This document shows positions 45,161 to 56,518 of a stretch of DNA of 64,000 bases, one piece after another. This DNA is from Synechococcus sp. CC9902. GTDB lineage: Bacteria; Cyanobacteriota; Cyanobacteriia; PCC-6307; Cyanobiaceae. Position numbers and translations under genes: made by a program. The notes below the pieces were generated by a model that had not been told where the DNA came from, did not search any database, and saw nothing but the letters and a program-made list of their open reading frames with translations. Location of the stretch: contig NC_007513.1 in NCBI RefSeq assembly GCF_000012505.1, positions 930,001-994,000 of the forward strand, given 5' to 3'. Every line of letters starts with the position of its first letter. Positions within the stretch are counted from its first letter, which is position 1.

Positions 45161-45454
45161 TTACCATAATTCTTCTTCGCACTCTGTTTTTATCGTCAGA
45201 TTTGAGGTTGCGTAAGCTACGCAGAGTAATGAATAGCCTTGCTCGATTTGATCATCATCCAAAAAGCTTTGATCGGATTGATCGACTGTACCTTCTAATA
45301 TTTTTCCAACACATGAGCTACAAGCCCCAGCCCTGCATGAATATGCCATATCGAATCCCGCTTGTTCTGCAGCATCAAGGATATATTCATCATCCTGACA
45401 TTCAAATATTTGCAATCCCTTTGGTGTGTGCATTGTGATCTTAAAAGCAGACAT
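45161..45454 (-). CDS. Plant-type [2Fe-2S] ferredoxin, divergent paralog
   Basis: 97 residues from the ATG at 45454. Electron carrier with a single 2Fe-2S cluster: [13 protein letters not shown] (Cys-x4-Cys-x2-Cys) and LLCVAYA (fourth Cys 29 residues later), plus [17 protein letters not shown] as in PetF. It differs from the petF at 53715 in its N terminus ([20 protein letters not shown]) and its AT-rich codon use. Cyanobacteria carry several ferredoxins with different partners; the partner here is unknown. Stands alone. Confidence 0.92.
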
Positions 45455-45684
45455 CATTAACTACAATCCACGTAATTATTGTTGCGCAATAATGATCTTG
45501 TGATAAGTATGCTACTCATTGCACGGTATTTTTATACGACTCTGAGTCGTATTCTTAATATTTAGCCGCCAAGACTAAGTGTATCGTTTGATGTATTATC
45601 TTGCTCTTTATTGGCGCTAGCTTGTATGAATTGGCCAGGCTTTCGGCTGGATCAAATTAATGTGTAAATAGATTAGAATTAGTT

Positions 45685-45909
45685 TTGACCATTTCAAATC
45701 CCATTTCGCATCACTTAGGTCCAATAAAGGGCTGGAGATACAAAAGACTGCACATAGCAGTCGCCTTGAGAAAGCAAGGCTGGTCATATACGAAAATAGC
45801 AGATTATTTATTTATGACACCCAAAACAATTATGCGAGATATAAAATGTCTTGCTATCCAGGCGCATTGCAGTAAAAAATACAAGTTTCACTCAAGGCTT
45901 GAGGCATGA
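45685..45909 (+). CDS. Small helix-turn-helix protein
   Basis: 74 residues with a TTG start at 45685. LHIAVALRKQGWSYTKIADY then LFMTPKTIMRDIKCLA reads as a helix-turn-helix of the sigma-region-4/MarR-like sort found in small transcription factors and inverted-repeat binding proteins. The C terminus is basic. It could regulate genes in the surrounding AT-rich region, but this is inference. Confidence 0.6.
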   Translation: MTISNPISHHLGPIKGWRYKRLHIAVALRKQGWSYTKIADYLFMTPKTIMRDIKCLAIQAHCSKKYKFHSRLEA

Positions 45910-47165: not shown

Positions 47166-47528
47166 TCAATAAATACCAATACTAGAAAAGAACCCCTTGC
47201 TGATAATAATTAGAACACAGATCGCCGTAAAGGCAATCAAATTTGCATTTACTAATCTGAAAACAATCGGACTTCGTTTGGCTTTGCGTCGATCTTCAAT
47301 GCTTTGCTCTAGATTTTCCCAATATCCATAGACAACTACTTTTTGTGGGCTGAGATTCTTGTCAAATGAAATCGAATTATATCCATTTTTATCAATTTGA
47401 CATTGTTGAAAATTGATCTTTTCTATCTCATTTAAAAATGTACCTGCAATCCAGGATGCATGCATTCTAATTCCTATCAAAACCCATATTGCAGCCGAGA
47501 ATCCGATAATGACGTTTAGAAAGTCCAT
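47166..47528 (-). CDS. Hypothetical membrane protein
   Basis: 120 residues. N-terminal helix (NVIIGFSAAIWVLIGIRM), a polar central loop of about 60 residues with Cys (FQQCQIDKNGYN) and a C-terminal helix (ANLIAFTAICVLIIISKGFF). AT-rich like its surroundings. Function unknown. Confidence 0.65.
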   Translation of the reverse strand: MDFLNVIIGFSAAIWVLIGIRMHASWIAGTFLNEIEKINFQQCQIDKNGYNSISFDKNLSPQKVVVYGYWENLEQSIEDRRKAKRSPIVFRLVNANLIAFTAICVLIIISKGFFSSIGIY

Positions 47529-47843: not shown

Positions 47844-47951
47844 TTAAGGCTTAGATTCCGGTAAAGCTGTTATTTCATCTTTAGTATTTATCTTTGACTC
47901 AGCAGTCACTGGAGTATCTAAAGACTTCTTATTGTTAATGATCTTTTTCAT
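47844..47951 (-). CDS. 35-residue Lys/Ser/Thr-rich peptide coupled to the upstream gene
   Basis: ATG (47949-47951) overlaps the TGA of the 89-residue gene as ATGA. MKKIINNKKSLDTPVTAESK continues INTKDEITALPESKP. It repeats the low-complexity Lys/Ser/Thr style of the upstream product's tail. Possibly an extension of the same function; unknown. Confidence 0.5.
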   Translation of the reverse strand: MKKIINNKKSLDTPVTAESKINTKDEITALPESKP

Positions 47952-48217
47952 AGTTGTGTTTTTTCTATAGTTGCAGATTGTGACTTTGCTCCGCCCTTTT
48001 TAGACTCTGATTCCTTTTCTGAATCGATACTATATTTAGATTTAGAAGTTTCTATTGTAGGATCAGCTTTTTTAGGCTGTGCAGCTTTTTTAGGTTTGAA
48101 CTTCGAAGCGTCTAAATTCTTTTCTCCAAAAGTTTTGAAGCCTAGAAATATAAGACCTGCTGTAACAGGAATAGATGTGATTCCGCCTATAGCGATTTCG
48201 AAGCCGGTAAGTGCCAT
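47948..48217 (-). CDS. Membrane-anchored protein with Lys/Ser-rich tail
   Basis: 89 residues from the ATG at 48217 (MALTGFEIAIGGITSIPVTA). One helix (IAIGGITSIPVTAGLIFLGF) followed by a 60-residue Lys/Ser/Glu low-complexity tail. An ATG six codons upstream is possible. ATGA overlap with the next small gene. Divergent from the phycobilisome-linker gene at 48497. Confidence 0.6.
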   Translation of the reverse strand: MALTGFEIAIGGITSIPVTAGLIFLGFKTFGEKNLDASKFKPKKAAQPKKADPTIETSKSKYSIDSEKESESKKGGAKSQSATIEKTQL

Positions 48218-48496
48218 TGTTCTTTGTTGGATCATGGCAATTTACCATCTAGTATCGTTTCCAATGACAGAATTATATCGTCAAACATTTTGTATAAAAT
48301 AACCAGTCTAACTGTATATATAGGCATTGTATCTTCTCGATCCTTCCTAAAAATTTTCCCACTTTGCCAGTTGTTTTAGTATAAAATAAGACTTTTCTAT
48401 GTTCGCAACAGAAAGTGTAAGTGATATATATTCGCCTTTTATGATAAATATTGTCAGTCTCTCTCGCCTGGATGCGTAATCATAGGATATAGGTTG

Positions 48497-49261
48497 ATGT
48501 GTAATTGTATGAAAAATCTTTCATCAAGTAAAAGATTAGATTTCGACTATTTAACTCAGAATTCTCGCGTAGAAACAATCTATCCTTTCAGTATTGATTC
48601 TCGAAGAGAGATATCTGAGAATTCATCTGCTGAACTAATTGAAAAATGTTATCGACAAATATTTTTTCATTCAATGAATTCCGACCGTGATCTCTTCCTT
48701 GAGTCGCAGTTTAAAAGCGGCAGTATTGAAATAAGAGATTTCATTAGAGGATTACTGCTATCAGATCGTTTTTATCGAGGTTATGTTGCCTGCAATAATA
48801 ACGAACGACTTGTTGAACAGGTGATCGGTCGGGTTTTGGGGAGACCTATTTATAGCATTCGTGAAAGACTGTCTTGGTCTATTTTAATTGCAGATCGGGG
48901 ATTTACTTATTTCGTAGATACCATTTTAGAGAGCAATGAGTACATGCAGAGATTTGGATACGATGAAGTGCCGAGACAAGTCAATAGAATTCTGCCTGGC
49001 AAAGAAATAGGAGAGATGCCTATCTATCAGAGATTACCAAGGTATGGCGAGAGTTGGAGAAATCGTTTAATTAAAGATAACATGATGATGTCTATTGATT
49101 CTTTTAATGTTGCTAATAGGCCACGTACCAAAATTGATGATTTGATTTATAAAGAGCCAAAGGGACGAGCATTACTAATCTGGCGAATATCACTAACCGT
49201 TGGCATTGTTTCAAGCGTCATAATTGTACTGTCCATCTTTAATGCTATGTTTAATTCTTAA
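48497..49261 (+). CDS. CpcG-type phycobilisome linker with C-terminal membrane helix (CpcL-like)
   Basis: 254 residues. The phycobilisome linker domain spans about residues 25-185: LTQNSRV at its start, LIEKCYRQIFFHSMNSDRD, then GRVLGRPIYSIRERLSWSIL, ESNEYMQRFGYDEVPRQVNR and YQRLPRYGESWR at its end, the pattern of rod-core CpcG linkers. Uniquely, the C terminus ends with a hydrophobic helix (ALLIWRISLTVGIVSSVIIV, residues 224-244) instead of a core-binding domain. This is the layout of CpcL (CpcG2), which attaches phycobilisome rods to the membrane and to photosystem I. AT-rich, in the same island as hli and IsiA/Pcb. Start uncertain by a few codons (ATG at 48509 also possible). Confidence 0.88.
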   Translation: MCNCMKNLSSSKRLDFDYLTQNSRVETIYPFSIDSRREISENSSAELIEKCYRQIFFHSMNSDRDLFLESQFKSGSIEIRDFIRGLLLSDRFYRGYVACNNNERLVEQVIGRVLGRPIYSIRERLSWSILIADRGFTYFVDTILESNEYMQRFGYDEVPRQVNRILPGKEIGEMPIYQRLPRYGESWRNRLIKDNMMMSIDSFNVANRPRTKIDDLIYKEPKGRALLIWRISLTVGIVSSVIIVLSIFNAMFNS

Positions 49262-50936: not shown

Positions 50937-51971
50937 TTAGCTTACTTTGGCAGTATCCATTGTTTCTAATGCTTGAGATACACTTTTAAAGTTGAATCCC
51001 ATACTGCGTAGTGCATGCCAAAAATGGCCTTGAAGGAAGAAGAATGCCAGATAGAAATGCGTATTGGCCAACCAGGCTCTTGCGGTGTGTCCATCGTTTA
51101 AGACTGCAGAAGTATCACTGAAGTATGGGGAGAATGCGAAATTGAGTTTCAAAGCCTCTCCATAAAACTCAACCGGATAGATCAGAGTGTTCTGTGCACA
51201 CCAGATACTGGTCACAAATCCCATCAGTGCTATCCCTGCCAGTGAATAAGACAGGATTGCTTCACCGGAATAAATCAAAATCTTTTTGAATGGCCCAAAT
51301 GGGCTTGAAATAATATGCCAAACCCCACCAATAGTGAGGATGAAAGCCAGAACGGCATGTCCTCCCATCACGTCCTCAAGGCTACTAATCGAGAGAAAAT
51401 TCGTCTGATAGCCCCAGACCATGCCTAGATCAATGTTGGGCTCAACTTGGCGAACGGCACCGATTGCAGTGTCATAGATGCCATGGTGTTTGGCCCATTC
51501 AACAAATGCAATAACACCCAATCCAAGAAAGATCAGATGATGGCCAAGGATAAATGTGAGTTTCTTGGCGTCGTCCCATTCAAAGTGAAAGTTTTGTGCT
51601 CGTCCCTCTGCGACGGATAAGTCTTTCGGGGCTCTGAGCGTATGCCAAATACCTGCTGCTCCCAACACCGCGGAAGAGACCAAATGAAAGGCTGCAATTG
51701 CAATGTATGGCTCTGTATTGGCAATTGTTGCACTCGCGTCGAGGCCTAATCCTAAAGACGCCATATGAGGTAAAAGGATTAATCCTTGGTCTCCCATAGG
51801 CAATGCACTGTTGTAACGAGCCAACTCAAAGAGAGTGAATGCACCGGCCCAAAACATGATGAGGCCAGCATGGGCGGCATGCGCCGCAATAAACGAGCCA
51901 GATCGTTTGGCTACTCCTGAATTTCCTGCCCACCAGTCATAGCTGACTGATGAATTCCCATAGGATTGCAT
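50937..51971 (-). CDS. IsiA/Pcb-type chlorophyll antenna (CP43-like)
   Basis: 344 residues from the ATG at 51971 (MQSYGNSSVSYDWWAGNSGV); an ATG at 52016 would add 15 residues. Six-helix chlorophyll-binding antenna. The family plan is exact: YDWWAGN, FIAAHAAHAGLIMFWAGAFT, LFELARY, PMGDQGLILLPHMASLGLGL, then LGHHLIFLGLGVIAFVEWAK, GGHAVLAFILTIGGVWHII and YLAFFFLQGHFWHALRSMGF. It lacks the large CP43 loop. IsiA-type proteins ring PSI during iron or light stress; no flavodoxin gene is beside it. The name cannot be settled without a tree. Confidence 0.95.
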   Translation of the reverse strand: MQSYGNSSVSYDWWAGNSGVAKRSGSFIAAHAAHAGLIMFWAGAFTLFELARYNSALPMGDQGLILLPHMASLGLGLDASATIANTEPYIAIAAFHLVSSAVLGAAGIWHTLRAPKDLSVAEGRAQNFHFEWDDAKKLTFILGHHLIFLGLGVIAFVEWAKHHGIYDTAIGAVRQVEPNIDLGMVWGYQTNFLSISSLEDVMGGHAVLAFILTIGGVWHIISSPFGPFKKILIYSGEAILSYSLAGIALMGFVTSIWCAQNTLIYPVEFYGEALKLNFAFSPYFSDTSAVLNDGHTARAWLANTHFYLAFFFLQGHFWHALRSMGFNFKSVSQALETMDTAKVS

Positions 51972-52356
51972 GTAAACAAACCATTGTGCTTCCACAGAGT
52001 ACGAATTAGTAACCATTTAATTGACGGCTGTTTACACTACTTTTCCTCCCTGAATCATTGGTTCAGCATTTTTCGACAATTGATACATGTCGTGGCATCG
52101 AGTTTCACATTGGTTTTTTATCCTTTCTTTCGCTCTTTATCTGTAGGTGCTTTTTGGTACGTCTTGATATATCTATTCTTACAATTAACTTTGTTTTTTT
52201 ATGCTGGTGAAGTCTTAGTTGTTTTCTTCATTGTTCCGTCCTTGCAGCTTGTTCGAGGTATTTCCTTGTTCCATTCACCACCAATCTCTTTTATGCTTCA
52301 TGGTTTGCTGCTGGTATTCCTTTTATGCACTCATTTCGAGGTAGGTTGATTTTTAA
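51972..52356. other. Regulatory region upstream of the IsiA/Pcb gene
   Basis: About 385 bases, strongly T-rich on the plus strand. Hydrophobic plus-strand frames here arise from the T runs. A GGAGG-like sequence (GGGAGGAAAAG on the minus strand, about 52042-52052) is too distant from the start codons. Promoter and stress-response elements should lie here, but none is clearly recognised. Confidence 0.35.
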
Positions 52357-53049: not shown

Positions 53050-53691
53050 ATGAATGGCCTGATTGTTCGGGGGAACGCTGATAATTTGCCACCGCTCGTT
53101 TGTATTTGTGGCGGTTCGGCAACCGGTAAGACTCATTTTGCGAATGGTCTGGTGCGTCATCTTGAATCTCTTGGGCTTACGGCCCTTCCCTTGCACTGCG
53201 ACAACTACTACCGAAGTCGGTACAAGCCTGATCCGATCGCTGGGTTTGACACCATCAATGCGATTGATACAGAGGCTCTTCTGGCCGATCTTCAAGCGGC
53301 AAGGAAGCGAACGCTCACCCGCTTACGTCGTTACGACATGGCCTCGCGCGTGGTCGATTACAAGCCCATTGATGAAAGTTTCCTCTCCGCTGGTTATGAC
53401 CTGATTGTTGTGGAGGGTGCCTACGGACCTCAAGCCATCCTTCCTCGAATTTTGATCGATGTAGTGGTGTATCTCGAAACACCACTTTGGCGTCGTATTT
53501 GGCGACGACTTCGCCGTGATGTTCGTGAGCGTGGGCGTTCTCCGATCTCTGTGCTCCACCAAACGTTTTGGCAAATGCTTCCTGGGGAACGCCGCTTCAT
53601 CGTTCCACTACGACAGCAGGCCCATGTTGTGGTGCGTGATCCTGTTAAAGGTTGCCGTGCGGTTTTGGCGCGGATCACCGGTCACGGCTAA
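53050..53691 (+). CDS. Uridine/phosphoribulokinase-like P-loop kinase
   Basis: 213 residues from the ATG at 53050. Walker [21 protein letters not shown], the substrate region [20 protein letters not shown] (typical uridine kinase D-x-YY), [13 protein letters not shown] and VVEGAYGP with the acidic Walker B-like Glu. [15 protein letters not shown] is the lid-type basic helix. Phosphorylates a nucleoside or sugar, exact substrate unknown. Start from ATG, since a TTG at 53032 would precede the P-loop fold by extra residues. Confidence 0.88.
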
Positions 53692-53714
53692 CAACGAGTC
53701 AGGTGGTTTTGATT

Positions 53715-53999
53715 ATGGCCTCGTACACGATCAGCATCGAAGGTGGTAGTAGCTTCGATTGCGAAGACGACGTCTACATTCTCGATGCCGCTGATGCGGC
53801 GGGTGTCGACTTGCCATCCTCCTGTCGAGCCGGTGCCTGTTCAACGTGCGCTGGAAAAATTCTCACCGGGTCTGTCGACCAATCCGATCAAAGTTTTTTG
53901 GATGACGATCAGATGGGTCAGGGCTATGCCCTGTTGTGCGTGAGTTATCCAACGGCAAATTGCACCATTCAGTCGGATAGCCAAAACGACTTCAACTAA
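53715..53999 (+). CDS. petF: Plant-type [2Fe-2S] ferredoxin
   Basis: 94 residues from the ATG at 53715 ([20 protein letters not shown]). Carries electrons from photosystem I. Cluster ligands in [14 protein letters not shown] (Cys-x4-Cys-x2-Cys) and LLCVSYP (fourth Cys), plus the [20 protein letters not shown] segment. Ends immediately next to the convergent nth stop (53999/54000). Main or secondary PetF cannot be decided; the divergent copy is at 45161. Confidence 0.95.
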
Positions 54000-54716: not shown

Positions 54717-54754
54717 AACACAATATAGTATTAATTTTGAAACAATATTGTGTT
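54717..54754. promoter_or_regulatory. Candidate operator of the metal transporter operon
   Basis: AACACAATAT at 54717-54726 and its perfect reverse complement ATATTGTGTT at 54745-54754 are separated by 18 bases. It lies 65 bases before the mntC start, between the divergent nth and mntC genes. Position fits a metal-dependent repressor site, but no specific regulator can be named. Confidence 0.5.
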
Positions 54755-54818
54755 TGCATGTGTTCGCTCCTGGTTGCGATGCCTCCGTTGCAGCCATGTG
54801 GCAGACATAGTGGGTCGT

Positions 54819-55751
54819 ATGGCGATTCGTCTGATCTCAAGGGCTGCAGCTGTTGTGCTGGGTGTGGGTGTCATCGTTGCGGGTTGTGCTGATCGTTCCC
54901 GTGTATCTCGGGAAGATTCACGGCCACGGGTTCTCACCACATTCACCGTGCTCGCTGATTTGGCGCGCAATGTGGCTGGCGATCGCCTTCAGGTGCATTC
55001 GATTGTTAAGGAGGGAGCGGAAATTCATGGATATCAGCCCACGCCCAGTGATATCGAGCGGTCTGTTGGTGCAGATCTTTTAGTTGAGAATGGGTTGGGC
55101 CTCGAACTTTGGGCACGTCGTTTTACGGCTGCAGCAGGAGACATCCCCACCGTCACCTTGTCGGAAGGGATGGAGCCTCTTCTGATCCGCGAAGACGCTT
55201 ATGCCGGAAAGCCCAACCCCCATGCCTGGATGTCGCCGAAGCGGGCTATGGACTATGTCGATCGTCTTCGGGAGGCCTTCACCAATTTGGACCCGGATGG
55301 TGCGGAGGACTACGCCAATAACGCTGACGCCTACAACAAAAAACTTCAAGCCTTAGATGGTGAATTGCGTGAAGTTCTTGCCACCATCCCACCACAACAT
55401 CGAGTGTTGGTGAGCTGTGAAGGTGCTTTCACTTATCTCGCGACGGATTACGGACTCGAGGAAGCATTCCTATGGCCTGTTAATGCCGAAAGTGAGATCA
55501 CTCCGAAACGAATGGCTCGATTGATCAATACCGTGCGTGAGCGTGCAGTCCCTGCGGTGTTCTGCGAAAGCACCGTTAGTGATAAGGCTCAACGAGAAGT
55601 CGCGGCCGCAGCTAATTCTCGGTTTGGGGGGACGTTTTTTGTGGATTCACTTTCGAAGCCTGATGGCCCGGCGCCCACCCTCTTGGAATTGCAGCGTCAC
55701 AATGTGAAACTGATCCTTGATGGTTTAACAGACAGGGGGGAAGACGGTTGA
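54819..55751 (+). CDS. mntC: Metal ABC transporter solute-binding lipoprotein (Mn/Zn type)
   Basis: 310 residues from the ATG at 54819, with a lipoprotein signal peptide and lipobox VAGC (Cys at residue 23). Binds a divalent metal in the periplasm. The four ligand regions are seen: EIHGYQPTPSDIE (His), NPHAWMSPKRAM (His), VNAESEITPKR (Glu) and FFVDSLSKPDGPAPT (Asp). The lack of a His-rich loop favours Mn over Zn, a known trend in this family. Overlaps mntA by 4 bases. Confidence 0.93.
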   Translation: MAIRLISRAAAVVLGVGVIVAGCADRSRVSREDSRPRVLTTFTVLADLARNVAGDRLQVHSIVKEGAEIHGYQPTPSDIERSVGADLLVENGLGLELWARRFTAAAGDIPTVTLSEGMEPLLIREDAYAGKPNPHAWMSPKRAMDYVDRLREAFTNLDPDGAEDYANNADAYNKKLQALDGELREVLATIPPQHRVLVSCEGAFTYLATDYGLEEAFLWPVNAESEITPKRMARLINTVRERAVPAVFCESTVSDKAQREVAAAANSRFGGTFFVDSLSKPDGPAPTLLELQRHNVKLILDGLTDRGEDG

Positions 55752-56518
55752 TGCGCATCGACGCCGATCAACTCTGTGTTGACTACAACGGCACGGTGGC
55801 GCTGTATGACGCCAGTCTCCATTTGCCCGCTGGTTGTATATGTGGTCTTGTCGGGATGAATGGGGCTGGTAAGTCCACCTTGTTTAAGGCCCTAACAGGC
55901 TTCGTCCGACCTTCTCGGGGCTTGATTCGCATCAATGGCCGCAGTGTCAAAGAAGCCCAGCGTGAGCAAGCCGTTGCCTACGTCCCACAGAGCGAGGGAA
56001 TCGATTGTCAGTTTCCTGTCTCGGTTTGGGATGTGGTGATGATGGGTCGCTATGGCGCGATGAATTTCCTCAGGATTCCACGTGGGTCCGATCGTGTAGC
56101 CGTTCGACATGCCCTGGAACGAGTTGAGTTGTTGGAACTGCGCAACCGACCGATCGGCACCCTTTCCGGTGGTCAACGCAAGCGTGCATTTTTGGCTCGT
56201 GCCATTGCGCAGAGAGCAGATGTTCTTTTGTTGGATGAGCCTTTTAATGGAGTAGATGTAAGAACTGAGAAATTAATGGCCCAGTTATTTATTCAGTTTC
56301 GTGAAGAAGGTCGTACGATTTTGATTTCCACCCACGACCTCAGTCATGTGCGTGATTTCTGTGATTCAGTTGTCTTGATTAATAAAACTGTTCTTGCCTA
56401 TGGTGAAACGTCTGAAGTCTTTACTCCTGAGAATCTTGCTATGACCTTCGGAGGATTTCCTCCCAATTTGTTAACGGGTCATAGTTCTCCGGGTGATTCT
56501 GTCGAACCCTTGAATTAA
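55748..56518 (+). CDS. mntA: Metal ABC transporter ATP-binding protein
   Basis: 256 residues. Walker A LVGMNGAGKSTLFKALTG, signature GTLSGGQRKRAFLARAIAQR, Walker B VLLLDEPFNGVD and H-loop ISTHDLSHVRDF. Start ATG overlaps the mntC stop by 4 bases. Drives import of the metal captured by MntC, with the permease encoded at 57969. The order C-A then an inverted gene before B is unusual for a single operon. Confidence 0.93.
   Translation: MMRIDADQLCVDYNGTVALYDASLHLPAGCICGLVGMNGAGKSTLFKALTGFVRPSRGLIRINGRSVKEAQREQAVAYVPQSEGIDCQFPVSVWDVVMMGRYGAMNFLRIPRGSDRVAVRHALERVELLELRNRPIGTLSGGQRKRAFLARAIAQRADVLLLDEPFNGVDVRTEKLMAQLFIQFREEGRTILISTHDLSHVRDFCDSVVLINKTVLAYGETSEVFTPENLAMTFGGFPPNLLTGHSSPGDSVEPLN

Follow-up and report, generated by a model that had tools for sequence, protein, structure and literature searches.

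The cpcGIII gene and its product

The window considered here, a stretch of 64,000 nucleotides from the genome of Synechococcus sp. CC9902 (contig NC_007513.1, positions 930,001 to 994,000), contains cpcGIII, a gene for a phycobilisome (PBS) rod linker of 250 amino acids with a membrane-type tail (48509..49261, forward strand). The gene is seen in 17 of 34 genomes of the genus (the window's own and 33 others), and across these genomes it is linked to iron-stress genes, both in its phyletic pattern and in physical proximity. The name is that of Six et al. 2007 (PMC2246261): the gene can be identified with the third cpcG described there, which is located outside the PBS clusters and unlinked to other PBS genes, and the linker set of the genome fits the row given for CC9902, namely cpcGI, a cpcGII that is part of the rod cluster, and an unlinked cpcGIII. 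That study reports cpcGIII in CC9902, BL107, CC9311, and CC9605, out of 11 marine Synechococcus genomes. Within the open-licence literature searched, the name is found only there.

The forward-strand reading frame is open from 48494 to 49261 and offers three in-frame starts, TTG 48494, ATG 48497, and ATG 48509. The start at 48497, given in an earlier sequence-only reading of this stretch, is possible; the start at 48509 is more likely, as the two nearest orthologues begin where this ATG stands. The reading frame is real and under purifying selection, with whole-gene ratios of nonsynonymous to synonymous substitution rates (dN/dS) of 0.094 and 0.095 against two orthologues, and of 0.136 and 0.127 against the same two for the last 60 residues. 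The protein matches the linker domain PF00427 with 112 bits at a cut-off of 28.7 (residues 36-157 of 250; 48614..48979, forward strand), which bears out the linker domain claimed before, and no further Pfam match is found up to E 0.01. The fold likewise matches PBS rod linkers in the PDB: the top Foldseek matches of the model are PBS rod-linker chains, the first being a chain of the Synechocystis rod 7sc8, and Synechocystis CpcL (8hfq) takes rank 10. This ranking indicates a rod linker, not which kind. A phage or viral origin of cpcGIII was considered and rejected after a scan of viral contigs with six peptide patterns, which detects close relatives only, gave no relative. Genome contigs scanned with the single CpcGIII protein returned nothing, and the scan with an alignment is represented by the best 80 of 534 relatives.

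The C-terminal helix

The most hydrophobic 19-residue segment of CpcGIII is LTVGIVSSVIIVLSIFNAM (residues 229-247 of 250; 49193..49249, forward strand), with a Kyte-Doolittle mean of 2.21; it is preceded by a conserved IY-x-x-P-x-G motif. Shuffled residues equal this value in 2.4% of draws for the whole protein and in 3.6% for the tail, so that the hydropathy of the window protein alone is weak evidence. The helix becomes convincing through its conservation: the tails of all 17 CpcGIII proteins reach 1.62-2.84 (the lowest of these tails contains unknown residues), whereas in the genus 13 CpcGI tails of the core type, all those examined, stay at or below 0.95. AlphaFold2 models a helix at residues 220-249 with a predicted local distance difference test (pLDDT) score of about 77-85, in a model whose overall mean is only 64.6. 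Hydropathy, conservation, and model thus agree in predicting a transmembrane helix of the kind that characterizes CpcL. In the window protein, arginine and lysine stand ahead of the helix and not behind it, as would suit a rod domain in the cytoplasm.

The LGFPQ block of the core arm is present in all 13 CpcGI rows and in none of the 16 CpcGIII rows tested; by this mark, the core-attachment C terminus is absent from CpcGIII. The sequence-only reading had described a linker domain with a membrane helix in place of the core-attachment region, and hence a CpcL layout. The comparison across the genus upholds this description, with one PF00427 domain, a membrane tail, and no core-attachment end. 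Neither of the two results named there as contrary, a placement with core CpcG proteins or a missing helix, was obtained.

The linker complement of the genome

The genome contains 13 PF00427 matches, three of which reside in a frame of 1037 amino acids and two in a frame of 547 amino acids; of the rest, five belong to frames with a single domain and three to genes of the CpcG type. The frame of 1037 amino acids is ApcE-like in its architecture, and three ApcE linker repeats are described for most marine Synechococcus (Six et al. 2007, PMC2246261). The core-type CpcGI of the genome has the LGFPQ arm, a VPFR end, and no helix. Both this CpcGI and the ApcE-like frame show that, judged by its genome, the strain is not rod-only, and the rod-only PBS envisaged in the sequence-only reading are not supported. 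At most, the strain would make extra membrane-bound rods.

The tail is also not unique to CpcGIII, since CpcGII and a probable MpeF are tailed as well. CpcGII, seen in 27 of the 34 genus genomes against 17 for CpcGIII, bears a hydrophobic tail in all 27 loci examined (26 from the genus and one from another genus of the family; Kyte-Doolittle 1.57-2.22); the CpcGII match of genome G016, which has an in-frame stop, is outside this set. The question therefore becomes what a second tailed linker adds.

Two side observations concern other rod proteins. A linker of the phycoerythrin type (L005:1279-2184, corresponding to G000:C1:461014-461907) ends in a hydrophobic helix, with Kyte-Doolittle values of 2.08-2.33 in four of four full-length orthologues, and over the last 47 residues it shares 34% identity with the CpcGII tail. 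By position and distribution it is probably the MpeF of Six et al. 2007, and thus probably a phycoerythrin linker that bears a CpcGII-like membrane anchor. A partial CpcD-domain match lies in a frame of 399 amino acids (G000:C1:766266-766352). We take this frame to be perhaps a ferredoxin-NADP reductase, able to sit on rod ends.

Ancestry of CpcGIII

Trees were built from the linker domain and arm with the tail removed, as a quick tree of 106 rows and as careful trees of 63 and 66 rows picked from it; one orthologue (L058) and one CpcGII locus (L064) are absent from the trees, and the tails of both were measured. CpcGIII forms one clade (support 99/95) that joins the CpcGII proteins of marine Synechococcus and freshwater relatives (100/97), separate from CpcGI. 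An assignment of CpcGIII to the core rod-core linkers (CpcGI) is rejected, as it has no core-binding C terminus and does not group with them. The nearest tree group, CpcGII of marine Synechococcus and Cyanobium, is also tailed, with a tail sequence that differs from that of CpcGIII. By descent, CpcGIII is a paralogue of picocyanobacterial CpcGII.

CpcGIII resembles CpcL of Synechocystis sp. PCC 6803 (CpcG2, PDB 8hfq) in its single PF00427 domain, its C-terminal hydrophobic helix, its PRYG-type arm, and the missing core-attachment end; unlike it in ancestry, CpcGIII falls in a different clade, and Synechocystis CpcL is placed among the CpcG and CpcL proteins of other families. A single origin of all tailed linkers is rejected: forcing the 38 tailed rows into one clade costs 99.5 log units (approximately unbiased (AU) test, p 4.9e-7), for a group that is defined by the tail and was chosen after the quick tree was known. 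A kinship with Synechocystis CpcL is therefore not supported. CpcGIII has a CpcL-like layout, and probably a CpcL way of working, outside the CpcL clade.

Linkers near isiA also occur in other families. In three of seven isiA regions from these families a CpcG-like linker stands beside tandem isiA genes, and two of the three also hold a flavodoxin gene; in the other four (L233-L236), isiA occurs without a CpcG-like linker. The three linkers group with Synechocystis CpcL (the tail of one, L231, was judged by eye), and uniting them with CpcGIII in one clade is rejected (AU p 7.8e-4); in this test the Trichodesmium type is represented by these three proteins and not by the Trichodesmium protein itself. 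The association of a tailed linker with isiA thus seems to have arisen at least twice.

Gene neighbourhood

The iron-stress neighbourhood, absent from the sequence-only reading, is the more informative feature of the locus. An isiA/pcb-type gene for a chlorophyll-binding antenna protein (50937..52016, reverse strand; TIGR03041, 499.6 bits) is found 2.6 kb downstream of cpcGIII on the opposite strand; an isiA of CC9902 is listed in PMC2644788. Of the 17 genomes with cpcGIII, six have isiA at most 3 kb from it and 13 have isiA or flavodoxin at most 8 kb away; flavodoxin by itself lies within 8 kb of cpcGIII in 10 of the 16 regions other than the window. A gene for a 2Fe-2S ferredoxin (45161..45457, reverse strand; TIGR02008, 138 bits) lies on the other side of cpcGIII in the window, and in three genomes (L057-L059) a relative is located between cpcGIII and isiA. 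The order in these three, with Pfam names taken from L057, is solute-binding protein, ferritin, cpcGIII, helix-turn-helix (HTH) gene, ferredoxin, and isiA, with flavodoxin farther along, so that the solute-binding protein and ferritin genes are directly upstream of cpcGIII. The solute-binding protein is presumably involved in iron uptake or transport. The link between cpcGIII and iron genes hence takes at least three arrangements: that of the window, that with flavodoxin, and that with solute-binding protein, ferritin, ferredoxin, and isiA.

Two orphan genes accompany cpcGIII. The first, labeled p95 here (47951..48235, reverse strand), is divergent from cpcGIII and encodes a small protein with one hydrophobic stretch and a lysine-rich tail; it adjoins cpcGIII in 14 of 17 genomes. 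The second, labeled p120 (47169..47528, reverse strand), encodes a protein with two hydrophobic stretches, modeled by AlphaFold2 as two helices with low confidence (mean pLDDT 61), and its presence follows that of cpcGIII. Neither has a Pfam or NCBIfam match up to E 0.01, and among the 59 genomes searched (own included) both are seen in this genus only. In nine genomes a copy of p95 lies within about 2 kb of isiA and away from any cpcGIII, in eight of these with in-frame stops; the broken copies hint that p95 once stood beside isiA. In one genome that lacks cpcGIII, G007, isiA is interrupted by two in-frame stops and stands beside broken copies of p95 and p120 (G007:C1:1412638-1414997); the genome has an intact p120 elsewhere. 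This looks like decay of the module.

Several further features surround the locus. In 11 of the 17 genomes (L046-L056; Fer4_13 in L047), cpcGIII is followed at a distance of about 0.5 kb by a single-cluster 4Fe-4S ferredoxin gene of the same orientation, and the window has no such neighbour. Beside the 2Fe-2S ferredoxin gene, the window encodes a small HTH protein (45685-45909, HTH_23) whose relative stands between cpcGIII and ferredoxin in L057-L059; it is a possible candidate regulator. Beyond isiA, a second 2Fe-2S ferredoxin-like open reading frame (53652-53999) is 56% identical to the first (tblastn), and is followed, at 54750-56518, by a gene for a ZnuA-type metal-binding protein and then an ABC (ATP-binding cassette) ATPase-like frame, the latter recognized by a look at the sequence only. 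Upstream of cpcGIII, a Fur-box-like palindrome, TGATAAATATTGTCA (48442..48456, forward strand), agrees at 12 of 14 positions and is a candidate site and a weak lead only; the window as a whole holds five such matches against 2.9 expected, and the next-best site upstream of a cpcGIII gene is an 11/14 match in L055 (controls by simple letter shuffling).

Co-occurrence across the genus

Within the genus, isiA is present in 15 of the 17 genomes with cpcGIII and in four of the 17 without it (Fisher p 3.6e-4). The orphan genes follow more closely: p120 is found in 17/17 against 1/17 (p 1.5e-8), and p95 in 17/17 against 3/17 (p 1e-6). Restricted to the 19 best assemblies, isiA occurs in all nine genomes with cpcGIII and in three of the ten without (p 0.003). 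The two cpcGIII genomes in which isiA was not found are 53% and 79% complete, and the counts include broken copies of isiA in G007 (without cpcGIII) and G011 (with it). These Fisher tests ignore kinship. Flavodoxin was searched for in 24 genus genomes (own and 23 others), and no co-occurrence test is claimed for it.

Kinship was considered on an rpoB DNA tree of 30 of the 34 genomes; G027, G010, G022, and G004 have no rpoB match and are absent from the pair tests. On this tree cpcGIII requires 8 changes, compared to a mean of 10.2 for shuffled labels, and 50-77 of 500 shuffles are as low. The tree provides seven independent pairs. On average, isiA changes in the same direction as cpcGIII in 5.1 of them and against it in 0.0 (median p 0.0625); for p120 the figures are 6.0 and 0.0 (p 0.031), and for p95 they are 5.7 and 0.0 (median p 0.031). 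An earlier rpoB protein tree gave no significance, as its five pairs could not bring any test to 0.05. Bibby 2009 lists isiA in four of 11 marine Synechococcus genomes, namely CC9311, CC9605, CC9902, and BL107. These are the four strains with cpcGIII in Six et al. 2007, provided that both sets of 11 genomes are identical, as we assume.

Proposed role and alternative explanations

The best reading of CpcGIII, towards which we lean by a modest preference, is that of a convergent antenna linker for photosystem I (PSI) under iron stress. Given the association of cpcGIII with isiA, flavodoxin, ferredoxin, and the genes of two small membrane proteins, the CpcGIII rod most probably serves PSI under iron starvation. 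We infer that CpcGIII works like CpcL: a rod would start on CpcGIII, the PF00427 domain of which would sit in the first, membrane-proximal phycocyanin hexamer, and the C-terminal helix would insert into the thylakoid membrane and anchor the rod there. The resulting rod, without an allophycocyanin core, would be built beside normal core-bearing PBS. In iron-starved cells, which make IsiA and are short of PSI, CpcGIII rods would transfer energy to PSI next to IsiA, and p95 and p120 may have a role in docking or assembly. A wider proposal is that marine Synechococcus independently evolved an iron-stress PSI module of IsiA, CpcGIII-anchored rods, and p95/p120 as docking or assembly factors, tailed linkers having entered the isiA response on at least two occasions; in this full form we regard it as tentative and, on balance, doubtful.

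The closest precedent is a cluster of isiA2, isiA3, isiA4, and cpcG2 in Trichodesmium that is iron-regulated, cpcG2 being 30-fold lower on iron addition, and a similar cluster in Leptolyngbya JSC-1 that is reported to rise about 500-fold under iron limitation (PMC12090762). There, as here, a rod linker gene is found near isiA, and regulation by iron is shown for those clusters. They differ from the present locus in that tandem isiA genes and the linker form one cluster, whereas here isiA is 2.6 kb off on the opposite strand, and in that the comparable linkers from other families group with Synechocystis CpcL and CpcGIII does not. For Cyanobium NIVA-CYA 375, a cpcL gene is reported and rod-shaped PBS are suggested (PMC13342260).

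A number of observations weigh against an iron-stress PSI linker. In the window, isiA and cpcGIII are not in one operon, and in four of the 17 fetched stretches (L046, L047, L051, and L056) neither isiA nor flavodoxin is found, two of these stretches (L051 and L056) ending at contig ends on the upstream side. Four genomes without cpcGIII carry isiA (interrupted by two in-frame stops in one of them), which means that isiA can do without cpcGIII; isiA of the cpcGIII genome G011 has one in-frame stop. The pair test for isiA, taken alone, is short of 0.05. A Fur-like box of 12/14 occurs in only two of the 17 upstream regions of cpcGIII (the window and one other), the best such site upstream of the window isiA reaches 8/14, and reports on the expression of cpcGIII were not found in the open-licence literature. 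Compared by BLAST with the CpcGII tail from its own genome, the tail of CpcGIII shows no detectable similarity, and, used alone in a sequence search of the PDB, it matches no chain up to E 10; the choice of partner thus is unreadable from the tail. Finally, Six et al. 2007 (PMC2246261) did not detect CpcGII in PBS by mass spectrometry in the strains tested there, but mention that they had earlier seen it in a PBS fraction of WH8102; the earlier sighting argues against tailed linkers being kept strictly in the membrane.

Alternative readings differ in which of these associations they set aside. CpcGIII might add nothing to CpcGII, being a second linker of the CpcL-like kind with constitutive or light-regulated expression, and its gene might lie near iron genes only because the region is a hotspot of gene exchange. 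The layout it shares with CpcGII of the same genome, its patchy distribution on the rpoB tree, as would be expected for mobile or dispensable genes, and the possibility that the co-occurring genes share an island are all consistent with redundancy. Simple co-location, however, explains neither the three or more distinct arrangements of cpcGIII with iron genes nor the presence of isiA with cpcGIII even when it is elsewhere in the genome, and we consider this reading rather unlikely. The helix might also anchor rods to a partner other than PSI, such as IsiA, NDH-1, photosystem II, or p95/p120 as a storage or quenching site. This would suit the tighter tracking of cpcGIII by p95 and p120 than by isiA, and the mostly broken p95 copies near isiA. 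CpcL-PBS are said to join an NDH-PSI supercomplex in PMC10322944, where CpcL rods are nevertheless described as bound to PSI; other partners have no direct support, and the reading is distinctly improbable.

That CpcGIII is an ordinary rod-core linker, whose hydrophobic stretch is no membrane helix, is very improbable indeed: shuffled sequences do produce an equally hydrophobic segment at the rate given above, and many core CpcG chains rank above CpcL among the sequence and fold matches in the PDB, but the tail is conserved in 17 of 17 proteins, the LGFPQ core arm is missing, and the tree sets CpcGIII apart from CpcGI. An iron-stress PSI antenna linker of convergent origin hence remains our preferred reading of CpcGIII.

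Significance

The gene cpcGIII (since 2007), the CpcL layout, and isiA-linked cpcG genes in other cyanobacteria are already known. Six et al. 2007 (PMC2246261) describe cpcGIII as a third copy of the rod-core linker, in a text from which the words iron, isiA, hydrophobic, and thylakoid are absent; the membrane tail and the iron linkage are added here. In the open-licence literature searched, we met no earlier account of the membrane tail and separate ancestry of CpcGIII, nor of its association with isiA, flavodoxin, p95, and p120 or of a convergent origin.

Iron limits photosynthesis across much of the ocean, and PSI is its most iron-costly part. If the proposed role is correct, some Synechococcus would widen the capture of green-blue light by PSI with iron-free pigments when PSI is scarce, besides the chlorophyll antenna IsiA, and strains of this kind could be recognized in genomes by cpcGIII, isiA, p95, and p120. 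A gene that has figured since 2007 as just another linker copy would thereby obtain a role, and the CpcL design would be a case of convergent evolution, with the warning that 'CpcL', when named by its membrane tail, is not one family.
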